A DNA stretch of 64,000 nt from an uncultured Elusimicrobium sp. GTDB taxonomy: Bacteria; Elusimicrobiota; Elusimicrobia; Elusimicrobiales; Elusimicrobiaceae. A program made the position numbers and the translations under genes. The stretch's first letter is position 1, and each line of letters opens with the position of its first letter. The stretch lies in contig CADBRU010000009.1 of assembly GCA_902797165.1 (NCBI GenBank), forward strand, positions 1 through 64,000. Reading direction: 5' to 3'. Shown one piece after another: positions 3,511-40,203 of this stretch. A model generated the notes under the pieces. The model had not been told where the DNA came from. It did no database searches and worked only from the letters and a program-made list of their open reading frames with translations.

Positions 3511-4032
3511 TTAATGAGAGCTCTGATATTCTGGATTGAGCGAAAAAGCTGAACATAAAGCTTTAACTCGTGGTGAATTGGCTTTAGAATTGTCGTCATA
3601 TCTGCAATGTTCTACCCATGTATTTGTTGATTTGCTTTTGTATGCCTCAACTCGTACATATGGCCAGTCTTCATCGTTTCTTTCGACGATTGCCATACAT
3701 TCATTTGGGTCACATGCAGCGGTATAAGCAAAATATTTGCTAGAAGAATTAAAATCCATGTCAAGTGATCTGTGTAATGATTCATCGTCATCACTGACAC
3801 GTGGGCCTGCCGTTGTGCTATAGTAGAACCAAACGCCCTCTGAATCAGTTGGATACCCATTTTCCATTATCCATATATCAACAGCTCTTTTCATACTTCC
3901 TAGTGTTGTGGTGGCTTCTGCGGCGCGTGCTTTTTCTACTGCTGCAGTATATTGTGGCAATGCTACTGCCGACAAAATGCCGATAATTAAAACAACGACG
4001 AGTAATTCAATTAGGGTGAAACCTTTTTTCAT
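3511..4032 (-). CDS. Type IV pilin-like protein
   Basis: A 173-residue prepilin. The leader MKKG is followed by FTLIELLVVVLIIGILSAVALPQY, the class III signal cut by prepilin peptidase after Gly, with Glu at +5 and a long hydrophobic helix. The C-terminal part is variable, with cysteine pairs near CDPNEC and HCRYDD...LCSAF that could form a disulfide loop. The start is set by AGGAGGCACT-ATG, and TACAAT lies upstream. It is monocistronic, one of five such genes scattered in the window. Whether it is a pilus subunit, a minor pilin or a secretion pseudopilin cannot be told from sequence. Confidence 0.9.
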   Translation of the reverse strand: MKKGFTLIELLVVVLIIGILSAVALPQYTAAVEKARAAEATTTLGSMKRAVDIWIMENGYPTDSEGVWFYYSTTAGPRVSDDDESLHRSLDMDFNSSSKYFAYTAACDPNECMAIVERNDEDWPYVRVEAYKSKSTNTWVEHCRYDDNSKANSPRVKALCSAFSLNPEYQSSH

Positions 4033-10382: not shown

Positions 10383-10931
10383 ATGAACAAAGCATTTACT
10401 TTAATTGAACTACTTGTAGTAGTGCTGATTATCGGCATATTATCTGCAATTGCATTGCCGCAATACACCAAAGCGGTGGAAAAAAGTCGTTCTTCTCAGG
10501 CACTTGTATTACTTCGGACTGCTTATCAAAATGCCAGTATTTATTATATGGAAAACGGCACATATCCGAACAGTTTTGAAGATATGGGGTTTGATATAGG
10601 ATGGAGCGGAAATAGCAAATGGGTAAGTAACGGCAACGAGAAAGATGTTAGATCTAACGGAGATTGGTCTTTGCAATTATATCATGCCGGAAATGGGAGG
10701 CTTATTTTGTACGCGGGTCGTATTAATGGGGCCTATGCCGGTGCCGGATTTGAAGTTACGGTAAATGATACAGACAAAACACCTAAACCCATCCAGATTC
10801 GTTGTGCGGAACGTGTCTCCAACGGTGTTGTTTTTGCAAAAAATGATGGAGATTATTGTGTCAAAATTATGCACGGCACTTTAGTTAACGATCCCTATGT
10901 GGATACTTATCGGGTTTATTCGTTGCCTTGA
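10383..10931 (+). CDS. Type IV pilin-like protein with Ala at the cleavage site
   Basis: A 182-residue prepilin, the longest of the five. The helix FTLIELLVVVLIIGILSAIALPQY is intact, but the leader is MNKA, so the residue before the cleavage site is Ala instead of Gly. Two distal cysteines (IRCAERV, DYCVKIM) could form the C-terminal loop. GGAG at about 10373 sets the start; TAAAAT lies upstream near 10351. It is monocistronic, followed by a terminator. Ala at this position is usually processed less well, so it may be a slow or minor subunit (inference). Confidence 0.88.
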   Translation: MNKAFTLIELLVVVLIIGILSAIALPQYTKAVEKSRSSQALVLLRTAYQNASIYYMENGTYPNSFEDMGFDIGWSGNSKWVSNGNEKDVRSNGDWSLQLYHAGNGRLILYAGRINGAYAGAGFEVTVNDTDKTPKPIQIRCAERVSNGVVFAKNDGDYCVKIMHGTLVNDPYVDTYRVYSLP

Positions 10932-25836: not shown

Positions 25837-26286
25837 ATGAAAAAAGGTTTTACGTTAATTGAACTACTGGTAGTAGTTTTAATTATCGGCATTTTATCTG
25901 CGGTAGCCTTGCCGCAGTATCAAAAAGCGGTTGCCAAATCGCGCGCAATGGAAATTGTATCTGTAATGGGTGCAACGATAGAGGCCGTTGATGTCGCTAT
26001 CTTAACAAACAGCGGCATTCCGTCTTCTTTGAGTTTTAGTGATTTGGATATTGAAGTTCCAACTCTTAAATATTCACGCGACTATAGTCTTAGTTGTGAT
26101 GGATCTCGCTGCAAAATGTATTTTGATGATACAAGTAGTCCGCATGATTGGAGTTTGAGTGCTTACCGGTATGCCGGTGACAATAAGTGGTATAGATATT
26201 GTTGGTACGGTACCAATTTGGGGTTGGGAGTTTGTAAGGGACTTGAATCGGCAGGATTTAGTATCAGAGACGGTTCCAGTTCTTGA
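25837..26286 (+). CDS. Type IV pilin-like protein
   Basis: A 149-residue prepilin, MKKG followed by FTLIELLVVVLIIGILSAVALPQY, with Glu+5. Four cysteines form two pairs (SCDGSRC and YCWYGT...VCKG), consistent with a disulfide-bounded C-terminal loop. ACAGGAGG precedes the ATG and several TATAAT-like boxes lie at 25779-25800. Monocistronic, between unrelated genes. Its N-terminal peptide is nearly identical to the pilins at 3511 and 39111, but the codons differ silently. Confidence 0.9.
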   Translation: MKKGFTLIELLVVVLIIGILSAVALPQYQKAVAKSRAMEIVSVMGATIEAVDVAILTNSGIPSSLSFSDLDIEVPTLKYSRDYSLSCDGSRCKMYFDDTSSPHDWSLSAYRYAGDNKWYRYCWYGTNLGLGVCKGLESAGFSIRDGSSS

Positions 26287-37229: not shown

Positions 37230-38948
37230 ATGGCTCAAACAGAATCAGAAGAATTAGATTTAACCGAAATTGTCAGTATCATTTTGAAACGGTTTTGGCT
37301 CATCGTGGGTTGTGTTTTGTGTGGTTTACTGGCTGCTATATTGGTCAATACATTAATGCGTCCGATGTATGAAGGGACTGCTTTAATCATGATCAACAAA
37401 GAAGAAGCCGGTAAAATAGACGCCAGCCCCTACGGCTCTTTTATGAGTGAAGAAGACTATTACCGCACGCAATATCAACTACTGGAAAGCCGTTCTTTAC
37501 TGGAGCGGGTGTATCAAAAATTAGATTTGGGCCAATACGAACAATTTGCCAATCCGGGCGGCGTGGCTAAATTGCACGGTGCTTTGAAAATTTCTCCGAT
37601 TACGCGCAGCCGTTTAGTCAATGTCAGTGTGCGTTCGTATGATCCGGCATTGGCAGCGGAAATTGCCAATACGGTAGCGGATACCTTTGTGCAAGAAAAC
37701 GTAAGCAATCGTATTTCTATGGGTAAAGACGTAATTCGCGCACTGGAAAATTCGGAAAATAGCCCGGCTGAGCAAGAATTATTAAATTCTATGCCGCAAG
37801 TGGTAAACAGTGATTTTATTAAATCACTTAAACAACAAGCGGCGGCTTTGACCAGTCAGCGCGCGCAATTATCGGCCAAATATACGGAAAGCCATCCGGA
37901 GGTTATTTCCGTTACCAAACAATTGGCTGCTGTTAATGCGCAAATTTCCTTGGAAACCAAACGTTTGGTGCAGAGTATTAAGATTGAGTTGTCGGGTCAA
38001 TTTTCCGGTAACAATATTCGCATTGTAGACCCGGCTATTACGCCCACTAACCCGGTCCGTCCGCGCAAATTAATCAATTTGATTATCGGCATTTTGGCCG
38101 GCGGGCTTTTGGGACTGTTAATTATTTTTGCACTGGAATTTTTAGATCAAAGTGTAAAATCTTCGGAAGATTTGGAAGCCAAACTGGGGCTTGCTTTTTT
38201 GGGTTTTATCCCGTATGAAAAGGGCAAAAAACGCGAAGTGGAATATGCCCCTATGCTAAAAGCGGGTAACTCTTTGCAAGCGGAAAATATACGTAATATC
38301 CGCACTATGCTGGGTTTTGCGCTGGCAGATGAGCCGCACGCTCCGTTTTTGATTACCAGTTCTATGCAAGGGGAAGGGAAAAGTCATTTTTCCTCTAATT
38401 TAGTAGTTGCTTTGACGCAAGCCGGACAAAAAGTATTACTGGTGGACGGTGATTTACGCCGCTCCCGTTTGCACAAGGTGTTTCACTTGAGTATTGATAA
38501 GGGGCTTAGTAATATTTGGTCCAGTAACGCCGATAAAGCCAATTATGAGGCCAATGTGCAAGCGGTCAAAGATGTACCGAATTTGTTTGTCATGACCTCC
38601 GGTCAACGCCCGCCCAATCCGGCCGAACTGTTAAGCACCCCCAAATTGGCCGATTTTATCAAATGGGCAGAAAAGCATTATGACCATGTGATTATAGACT
38701 GTCCGGCTATTTTGCCGGTGGCTGATACTATGTTGTGGGGACGGTATATCCCACGCGGCATTTTTGCGATTCGCTATGGCAAAACCAATGCCAAACTGGC
38801 CCGTATTGCACTAGACAAACTTAGTAAAGCCGGCATTAAGGTCTTAGGGGCTGTAATCAGCCAATACCGCCCGAGTGGCTTATCATACGGGAAATACGGG
38901 TATTATAAGAGTTATCACTATTATCACGATAAAGAAGATAATAAATAA
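37230..38948 (+). CDS. Polysaccharide co-polymerase / BY-kinase (Wzc family)
   Basis: A 572-residue chain-length regulator and tyrosine autokinase. The Wzz domain starts with a helix (FWLIVGCVLCGLLAAIL) and ends with a second one (IGILAGGLLGLLIIFALE) after a GNVR-like PRKLIN segment. The cytoplasmic BY-kinase has Walker A QGEGKSHFSSN, Walker A' LLVDGDLRRSRLHKVF and Walker B HVIIDCPA. The C-terminus is a tyrosine cluster (YGKYGYYKSYHYYH), the autophosphorylation site reset by a Wzb phosphatase. The periplasmic part is shorter than in E. coli Wzc. Ends with its own terminator. Confidence 0.93.
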   Translation: MAQTESEELDLTEIVSIILKRFWLIVGCVLCGLLAAILVNTLMRPMYEGTALIMINKEEAGKIDASPYGSFMSEEDYYRTQYQLLESRSLLERVYQKLDLGQYEQFANPGGVAKLHGALKISPITRSRLVNVSVRSYDPALAAEIANTVADTFVQENVSNRISMGKDVIRALENSENSPAEQELLNSMPQVVNSDFIKSLKQQAAALTSQRAQLSAKYTESHPEVISVTKQLAAVNAQISLETKRLVQSIKIELSGQFSGNNIRIVDPAITPTNPVRPRKLINLIIGILAGGLLGLLIIFALEFLDQSVKSSEDLEAKLGLAFLGFIPYEKGKKREVEYAPMLKAGNSLQAENIRNIRTMLGFALADEPHAPFLITSSMQGEGKSHFSSNLVVALTQAGQKVLLVDGDLRRSRLHKVFHLSIDKGLSNIWSSNADKANYEANVQAVKDVPNLFVMTSGQRPPNPAELLSTPKLADFIKWAEKHYDHVIIDCPAILPVADTMLWGRYIPRGIFAIRYGKTNAKLARIALDKLSKAGIKVLGAVISQYRPSGLSYGKYGYYKSYHYYHDKEDNK

Positions 38949-38978: not shown

Positions 38979-39009
38979 AAAACCCAATACGCAATGTATT
39001 GGGTTTTTT
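38979..39009 (+). terminator. Terminator of the wza-wzc transcript
   Basis: AAAACCCAATAC / GTATTGGGTTTTTT with a 5-nt loop, 30 bases after wzc. Confidence 0.88.
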
Positions 39010-39038
39010 GTGCATTATTCAATATTTTCACAAAAGAC

Positions 39039-39069
39039 TTGACAAACGCAGTTTTTTTTTTTTTACAAT
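39039..39069 (+). promoter_or_regulatory. Pilin promoter with T13 tract in the spacer
   Basis: A perfect -35 TTGACA (39039-39044) and TACAAT (39064-39069) are separated by 19 bp, twelve of which are T from a 13-T run at 39052-39064. Nineteen is above the optimal 17 spacing, so gain or loss of T residues during replication would change promoter strength. Confidence 0.6.
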
Positions 39070-39110
39070 AGTAATAGTAATATGCTACAGTAAAATAAAA
39101 GGAGGGAAGC

Positions 39111-39578
39111 ATGAAAAAAGGTTTTACACTAATCGAATTATTGGTAGTTGTGTTAATTATCGGTATATTATCCGCTATTGCCTTGCCGCAATATACCAAA
39201 GCGGTGGAAAAAGCACGCCGAGCAGAAGCCATACAAATGTTACATCAAATTCATCATGCTTGCCAAATCTATGAAATGGCCGGACAAGATTGCGGAGATG
39301 AACATTTATTAGAGAACTCGGATATCGGTTGGCCCGGAGAATTGACGATGGAGGGTTGTTATGACCAAATGTGTTTTAATACTAAAGATTGGCAGTATTC
39401 GGATACTACGGGGGGGACTTTTTGTGCTATTCCATTGAAATCTACCGCGGCGCCCTATGTGTTATGTATGAATGTGTCTTCTGCTTATGATGATTTCGGA
39501 AAAACGAAGTGCATGAATGAAAATGATGATAATGCTTGTCAAAAAATTTGTGGTGCTGACAATTGTTATATAGATTAA
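39111..39578 (+). CDS. Type IV pilin-like protein, cysteine-rich, possibly phase-variable
   Basis: A 155-residue prepilin, MKKG then FTLIELLVVVLIIGILSAIALPQY. The globular part is short, acidic and unusually rich in cysteine (ten, among them HHACQIY, DCGDEH, GCYDQMC, FCAIP, LCMNV, KCMNE and a terminal ACQKICGADNCYID), so several disulfides are likely outside the cell. AAAGGAGGG precedes the ATG. The promoter carries a 13-T tract (39052-39064). It is monocistronic with its own terminator, next to the exopolysaccharide genes. Confidence 0.9.
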   Translation: MKKGFTLIELLVVVLIIGILSAIALPQYTKAVEKARRAEAIQMLHQIHHACQIYEMAGQDCGDEHLLENSDIGWPGELTMEGCYDQMCFNTKDWQYSDTTGGTFCAIPLKSTAAPYVLCMNVSSAYDDFGKTKCMNENDDNACQKICGADNCYID

Positions 39579-39630: not shown

Positions 39631-40203
39631 TTATTTTTCTTTGGGTTTTTTGTAGCAGCGGCGGCAGCGTGCCTGATAGGCATCCGTTGTGCCCACCACA
39701 ATACGTTTGGTGTCTTTGGTGGTGCGCTGCGTAAACGTGGCAGGGTTGCCGCATTTGGTGCAAACCGCGTGGTTTTTGGTTACAAACTCCGCCTTGGCCA
39801 GTAAAGCCGCGGTTACTTCAAAGGGTTCTGCCCGATAGTCGGTATCTAACCCGGCTACAATTACGCGTTTGCCTTGATTGGCTAATTTTTCACATACTTC
39901 TACAATACCTTTGTCAAAGAAATTTACTTCGTCAATGGCAATGACTTGGGTATCTTTTTCAATAAGCGGTAAAATTTCGGAAGAGTTTTTGACACACGAA
40001 GCATCTACTTTATTTTGATTGTGGCTGATGATACTGCCTATCCCGTAGCGGGTATCGAGTTTGGAATTAAACAGTTGCACTTTTTGTTTGGCAATCAGTG
40101 CGGTACGTACACGGCGGATTAATTCTTCGGTTTTACCGGAAAACATACATCCGCAAATTACTTCTATCCAGCCTTGTTTTTTGAACATTAAGTTTGGGGT
40201 CAT
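39631..40203 (-). CDS. tdk: Thymidine kinase, type II
   Basis: A 190-residue thymidine salvage kinase. GCMFSGKTEEL is the P-loop, VIAIDEVNFF the Walker B, GLDTDYRAEPF the lasso/substrate region, and CTKC with CRRC hold the structural zinc. It phosphorylates thymidine with ATP; together with deoC in the upstream run it covers deoxynucleoside salvage. AGAGGAC lies eight bases before the ATG and TATAAT near 40240 could be its own promoter, 41 bases after lptD. Confidence 0.95.
   Translation of the reverse strand: MTPNLMFKKQGWIEVICGCMFSGKTEELIRRVRTALIAKQKVQLFNSKLDTRYGIGSIISHNQNKVDASCVKNSSEILPLIEKDTQVIAIDEVNFFDKGIVEVCEKLANQGKRVIVAGLDTDYRAEPFEVTAALLAKAEFVTKNHAVCTKCGNPATFTQRTTKDTKRIVVGTTDAYQARCRRCYKKPKEK

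Follow-up and report, generated by a model that had tools for sequence, protein, structure and literature searches.

The fim promoters of Bordetella pertussis carry a C tract, and the vlp genes of Mycoplasma hyorhinis are a handful of lipoprotein genes. The Vlp proteins form a multigene family of surface lipoproteins in which an adenine homopolymer is present in the promoter region of each gene, and changes in its length switch single genes (Citti and Wise 1995, as reviewed in PMC10502178). In Neisseria meningitidis, a poly-G tract lies between the -10 and -35 boxes of porA, where the gain or loss of one base alters transcription (PMC3899988). Promoter repeats also alter fimbrial expression in Haemophilus influenzae, where the (TA)n repeat of hifA/hifB acts via the spacing of the boxes, and at the fimbrial promoters of Bordetella pertussis (PMC3899988). 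An earlier note on the DNA described here had called variation of spacer length through homopolymers an established way to switch surface proteins; porA is such a precedent, with the vlp promoter tracts and the hifA/hifB repeat as related cases.

The locus described here lies in a 64-kb stretch of DNA (the window) and resembles Vlp in belonging to a surface-protein multigene family with a promoter homopolymer for each gene. However, the proteins are type IV pilins, both T and A tracts occur, up to ~110 T-type sites are present per genome and the host belongs to another phylum. These pilins would work alike but are not members of the Vlp system, which comprises Mycoplasma prolipoprotein genes; no homology is claimed, and switching has been demonstrated for Vlp whereas the present system is known from sequence alone. 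In comparison to porA, a single gene with a G tract, the present tracts are of A/T and belong to an entire pilin family, and the hif repeat differs in being a dinucleotide repeat at one or few loci of other pilus types. Type IV pilin diversity in a host-associated bacterium is also a feature of pilE/pilS in Neisseria gonorrhoeae, but there it is generated by gene conversion into one expression locus, whereas the pilin genes described here have one promoter each. Judging from the character of its proteins and the pattern of its relatives' taxonomy, the host is probably a member of the Elusimicrobiota, in an Elusimicrobiaceae-like family of gut bacteria. No paper describing phase-variable pilins from this phylum was found in the open-access literature (subscription journals not covered).

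The tract promoter and its pilin gene

The features of the locus are as follows.

37230-38948, + strand: Wzc-like polysaccharide co-polymerase/tyrosine autokinase, the upstream neighbour; its adjacency to the pilin is not conserved
38982-39009, + strand: terminator-like inverted repeat with a T run, separating the wzc gene from the pilin promoter, found by reading the letters
39004-39217, + strand: 5' module, consisting of the promoter and the first ~35 pilin codons, most of which is matched at 77-87% identity by ~15 further sites of the genome
39039-39044, + strand: -35 box TTGACA, a perfect consensus read in the sequence and the same in all 21 of the genome's tract promoters that were scored
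39045-39063, + strand: 19-bp spacer read in the sequence, AACGCAG (39045-39051) plus T12; the other tract promoters of the genome have 18-22 bp
39052-39064, + strand: T13 tract read in the sequence, the presumed slippage site
39064-39069, + strand: -10 box TACAAT, its first T being the last T of the tract, in the ACAATAGTAATAG context common to the paralogues
39100-39106, + strand: Shine-Dalgarno sequence AGGAGGG, read in the sequence
39111-39578, + strand: type IV pilin-like gene with its ATG at 39111, 155 aa and 10 Cys, from profile and PDB matches
39631-40203, - strand: thymidine kinase, a neighbour, from a profile match

Reading confirmed every letter of the arrangement described in the earlier note, in which TTGACA and TACAAT are 19 bp apart and 12 of the 19 bp are T inside a 13-T run. 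The T13 site is a simple repeat between the -35 and -10 boxes, as predicted from the sequence, of a sigma70-type promoter. The cysteine-rich pilin downstream of it was likewise recognised correctly: the protein scores above the cut-offs of N_methyl PF07963 (32.0 bits vs 21.2) and TIGR02532 (36.3 vs 16.3), both of which correspond to the prepilin N-terminal GFxxxE methylation motif, and its N-terminus matches PDB type IV pilins.

The T13 tract is the sole A/T run of at least 10 in the 64-kb window (four overlapping T10 matches that form one run), and the three other pilins of the window (3511-4032, - strand; 10383-10931, + strand; 25837-26286, + strand) have upstream T runs of at most 7. Base composition alone makes a T10+ run unremarkable in 64 kb, dinucleotide shuffles of the window yielding 5.9 T10 matches. 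It is the place of the tract, not its existence, that lies beyond chance, as 28 of 30 long runs genome-wide are located behind TTGACA. The tract is singular among the pilin promoters of the window, as the earlier note had said, but not in the genome, which has ~28 such runs.

The proposed link of the pilin to the exopolysaccharide genes did not survive comparison with relatives, since 15 of them have a wzc homologue and in none is it followed by a pilin within 1.5 kb (in one, no more than 26 bp could be read). The exopolysaccharide neighbourhood is thus incidental.

Tract promoters in the genome and the genus

Both strands of the whole 1.31-Mb genome were searched for T12 and all resulting runs were read. 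Of the 30 A/T runs of at least 12, 28 share one promoter architecture, in which the run follows TTGACA directly. The exceptions are a T16 (L250:5277) and, at the 3' flank of a tRNA gene, an A12/T12 (L083:17706). A pilin start is present within 450 nt downstream of 21 of the 28 TTGACA-tract sites; five of the remaining seven (L064, L085, L090, L254, L255) are at contig ends or repeat insertions, one (L257) is truncated and one (L251) is followed by a pilin remnant, MKKGFTLE-stop. Runs of 10 or 11 are nearly missing from the genome (one A10), and therefore the long tracts represent a separate population and are not simply the upper end of a continuous range. Interspersed repeats of palindromic sequence, CTGGATCCCGGATCCATGTCCGGGATGAC and CGTCATTGCGGGCGTGGACCCGCAATCCAG, separate tract promoters from pilin starts or disrupt the pilin (L251:7490-7700, L074:4340-4500, L064, L085, L090, L254), and several contigs end in these repeats.

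The tract promoters are of two types, TTGACAnnnnnAG-T12..16 followed by the -10 box (T18 once) and TTGACAAGCCT-A12..14-CTACACT. A third, related promoter group has an interrupted T-rich spacer, for example AACATAGTTTTTCTTTT. Since T and A tracts are both found on the coding strand of the same genome, it is the homopolymer character that is kept and not the sequence of one strand. A role specific to T on the coding strand (terminator-like, or slippage in the transcript) was rejected because A tracts exist and the tract precedes the -10 box. A pattern scan of genome contigs for the TTGACAAnnnCAG-T variant gave 58 matches in other bacterial groups and none in this one, records of the genome itself being left out.

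The pilin family is large. A protein search of the genome returned 93 scored matches among 135 candidates, and a scan of 866 kb gave 94 pilin reading frames. These pilins are conserved in amino acids 1-40 (86%) but not past amino acid 60 (19%). The pilin domains and the C-terminal diversity suggest that the tract would control a variable structure, presumably exposed on the surface. The position of a conserved promoter/N-terminal module before hypervariable pilin 3' parts could also serve recombination between pilins. Four PF00437 secretion/pilus ATPases are encoded in the genome, two of PilT-like size.

In the genus, the T-type pattern is present at 1,291 sites in 56 of 66 species, compared with 1 site for a reversed-pattern control. 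This pattern required at least 11 T and so misses shorter tracts; an initial version, which required TANNAT, had understated the spread (12 of 66) until the -10 box was loosened. The highest counts in single genomes are 110 (G011) and 102 (G006). The A-type pattern was found in 9 of 66 genomes, with 53 matches in G004 (a count in which some sites appear twice because they allow two -10 readings) and 0 in the control. Runs of at least 10 lie in the pilin promoter architecture in 38 of 38 cases in G049, 20 of 20 in G072, 29 of 30 in G011, 11 of 11 in G015 and 30 of 31 in G004; in the stretches of six relatives nearly every such A/T run sits in a promoter spacer with a pilin downstream. These stretches were picked around tract matches, so that the unbiased count is that of the window's own genome. 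Another genus of the family (G102), judged from matched strings and 3-kb loci, has 46 T-type sites (C1-C7), with T14-T19 among the 30 read. A few similar sites, TTGACATCACA-T14-CTACAAT, were seen in another family of the order (G053:C35:60386, G053:C44:77507, G026).

This distribution bears on the possibility that the tracts are a by-product, in which a promoter that happened to contain a T run was carried along in a recent expansion of the pilin family and its length noise has no effect. Common descent does explain part of the recurrence within the genome, as the 5' module is common to ~15 paralogues at 77-87% identity. However, at least three distinct architectures (TTGACAnnnnnAG-T, TTGACAAGCCT-A and TTGACnnG-T-GN) occur, spread over 56 of 66 species and another genus, and homopolymers should decay without selection, runs of at least 10 being nearly missing elsewhere in the genome. 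We consider a by-product very improbable.

Spacer length, tract length and a fixed-element alternative

All 21 pure-tract promoters scored in the window's genome have TTGACA, with spacers of 18-22 bp and 17 bp in none of them, while the other scored pilin promoters have a 17-bp spacer in 18 of 52 cases and mostly a weaker -35 box (TTGATA and similar). The difference in the 17-bp share gives a Fisher p of 0.0009, although the paralogues are not independent. Tract-free TTGACA...TANNAT pairs outside the pilins, from the stretches of seven genomes, peak at 17 bp (15 sites vs 3 at 16 and 4 at 18; small counts). A second peak of 17 sites, at a spacing of 23 bp, is unexplained. Strong boxes thus appear to be combined with the wrong spacing and a mutable spacer, and weaker boxes with the right spacing and a stable one; this contrast would be expected if poised switches existed alongside fixed promoters.

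Among paralogous promoters that share the -35 box and at least 30 nt of downstream sequence, the tract is T13 (window), T14 and T16 (L254, L090), and further pairs with near-identical flanks are A12/A14 and T12/T13. Between near-identical paralogues the tracts differ by 1-2 bases, an indirect indication that the length may be mutable. In the few cross-species pairs with aligned flanks, the tract length is equal or one apart. A pair in G049 (L221/L225) with 100% upstream identity was rejected as a length variant because a G-to-T change at the tract edge accounts for it; both sites are at contig ends.

The geometry that prevails in most species, TTGAC-nnG-T-GN-TA, combines a TGn extended -10 with a 16-bp spacer. 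Among 115 listed sites of ten species, 106 have the TGn extended -10; the spacer is 16 bp in 82, 15 bp in 22, 17 bp in 7 and longer in 4, and the tract is T11 in 25, T12 in 79, T13 in 8, T14 in 2 and T15 in 1. Between species, a longer lead is offset by a shorter tract (2 nt with T12 and 3 nt with T11, both 16 bp), which indicates that the spacing is under selection. A 16-bp spacer with an extended -10 may well be active, a point that weighs against the switching model. In G102 the spacers are 15-16 and 19-23 bp, with 17-18 bp in none of 30.

The main rival explanation is a fixed structural element, in which a rigid A/T tract in the spacer serves DNA shape or regulator binding and length changes are rare defects purged by selection. 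Such an element would account for the compensation toward a constant 16-bp spacer, the conservation of the spacer motif while the flanks diverge and the tight lengths per species, as in G049, where T12 is present in 32 of 38 sites across diverged flanks. The tightness in G049 seems to fit stabilising selection as well as switching, and the slippage rate may be modest there or the selection strong. However, homopolymer purity is kept in the T and A orientations alike, and ~30% of the 115 sites from ten species are off the modal length. The spacers also spread over 18-22 bp in the window's genome and 15-23 bp in G102, skipping 17 in both, and interrupted tracts, which would be structurally as good, are found at 17 bp together with a weak -35 box. 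Taken with these observations, a fixed structural element seems unlikely, though it is the strongest of the alternatives.

Recombination as the switch, in which conserved promoter/N-terminal modules swap variable pilin 3' ends and the tract merely marks them, has in its favour the conserved 5' module, the hypervariable C-termini and the pilin remnants and repeat insertions near tracts, but it leaves unexplained why pure tracts in two orientations lie exactly in the spacer and off the 17-bp optimum, so that we give it the least weight of all, although it could operate in addition to slippage.

A putative bank of independently switched pilins

We favour, with a probability of roughly 0.74, a pilin 'phasome', an extensive set of pilin genes that would each have a contingency locus in the promoter spacing and putatively be switched one by one. 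The earlier proposal of a phase-variable pilin promoter is upheld in so far as a homopolymer occupies the spacer of a pilin promoter, the architecture recurs in the genome and the genus and is restricted to pilins, near-identical paralogous promoters differ in tract length and most spacers are off 17 bp; the exopolysaccharide link falls away, and the tract is unique within the window but not beyond it. MutS and pilus-type ATPases are present as well. From these observations we infer slippage within a strain, an effect on transcription and a biological use in the diversification of surface pili, probably in a gut bacterium.

Each pilin of the family would have its own promoter with a pure T or A tract between the -35 and -10 boxes, where polymerase slippage would occasionally gain or lose one base, each event shifting the spacing by one. 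RNA polymerase would bind both boxes well at a spacing near 17 bp, and farther off poorly, so that a shift would alter the transcription of that single pilin, reversibly and independent of the other pilins. The window promoter with 13 T (19 bp, two T too long) is predicted to be weak to intermediate, and the loss of two T would bring it to 17 bp. As most tract promoters of the consensus genome are off the 17-bp optimum, the majority of these pilins would be expressed weakly or not at all, and slippage would raise a few. Cells of one clone would then differ in the pilins made, each pilin following its own tract. The mechanism has established precedents in vlp, porA and hifA/hifB; the steps from length change to transcription and on to pili are presumed.

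The presence of MutS in the genome is a point against this phasome. Loss of MutS as the cause of the tracts was rejected, as MutS_V is present in 66 of 66 genomes. The window's genome has two full-looking MutS (PF00488) genes (G000:C10:30386-30967 and G000:C6:26009-26590), while its congeners have one; the second is a paralogue or a binning contaminant.

A bolder form of the phasome, genus-wide, with up to ~110 pilin genes per genome under independent homopolymer promoter switches, most of them parked by selection at least one base off the optimum and few pilins made per cell, is more tentative, and we put it somewhat below even odds. The mechanism is ordinary; the scale and the host are unusual. 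If true, this would be among the largest combinatorial promoter-slippage systems described. An isolated promoter observation becomes a comparative system with ~1,300 natural variants, and the tract length per locus in reads is a signature that can be counted in public metagenomes. We know of no reason why bacteria of this family carry dozens to more than 100 pilin genes. If slippage switches many pilins separately, the pilus combinations open to a single cell line would be extremely numerous, and this would bear on adhesion, immune evasion and escape from phages in animal guts.
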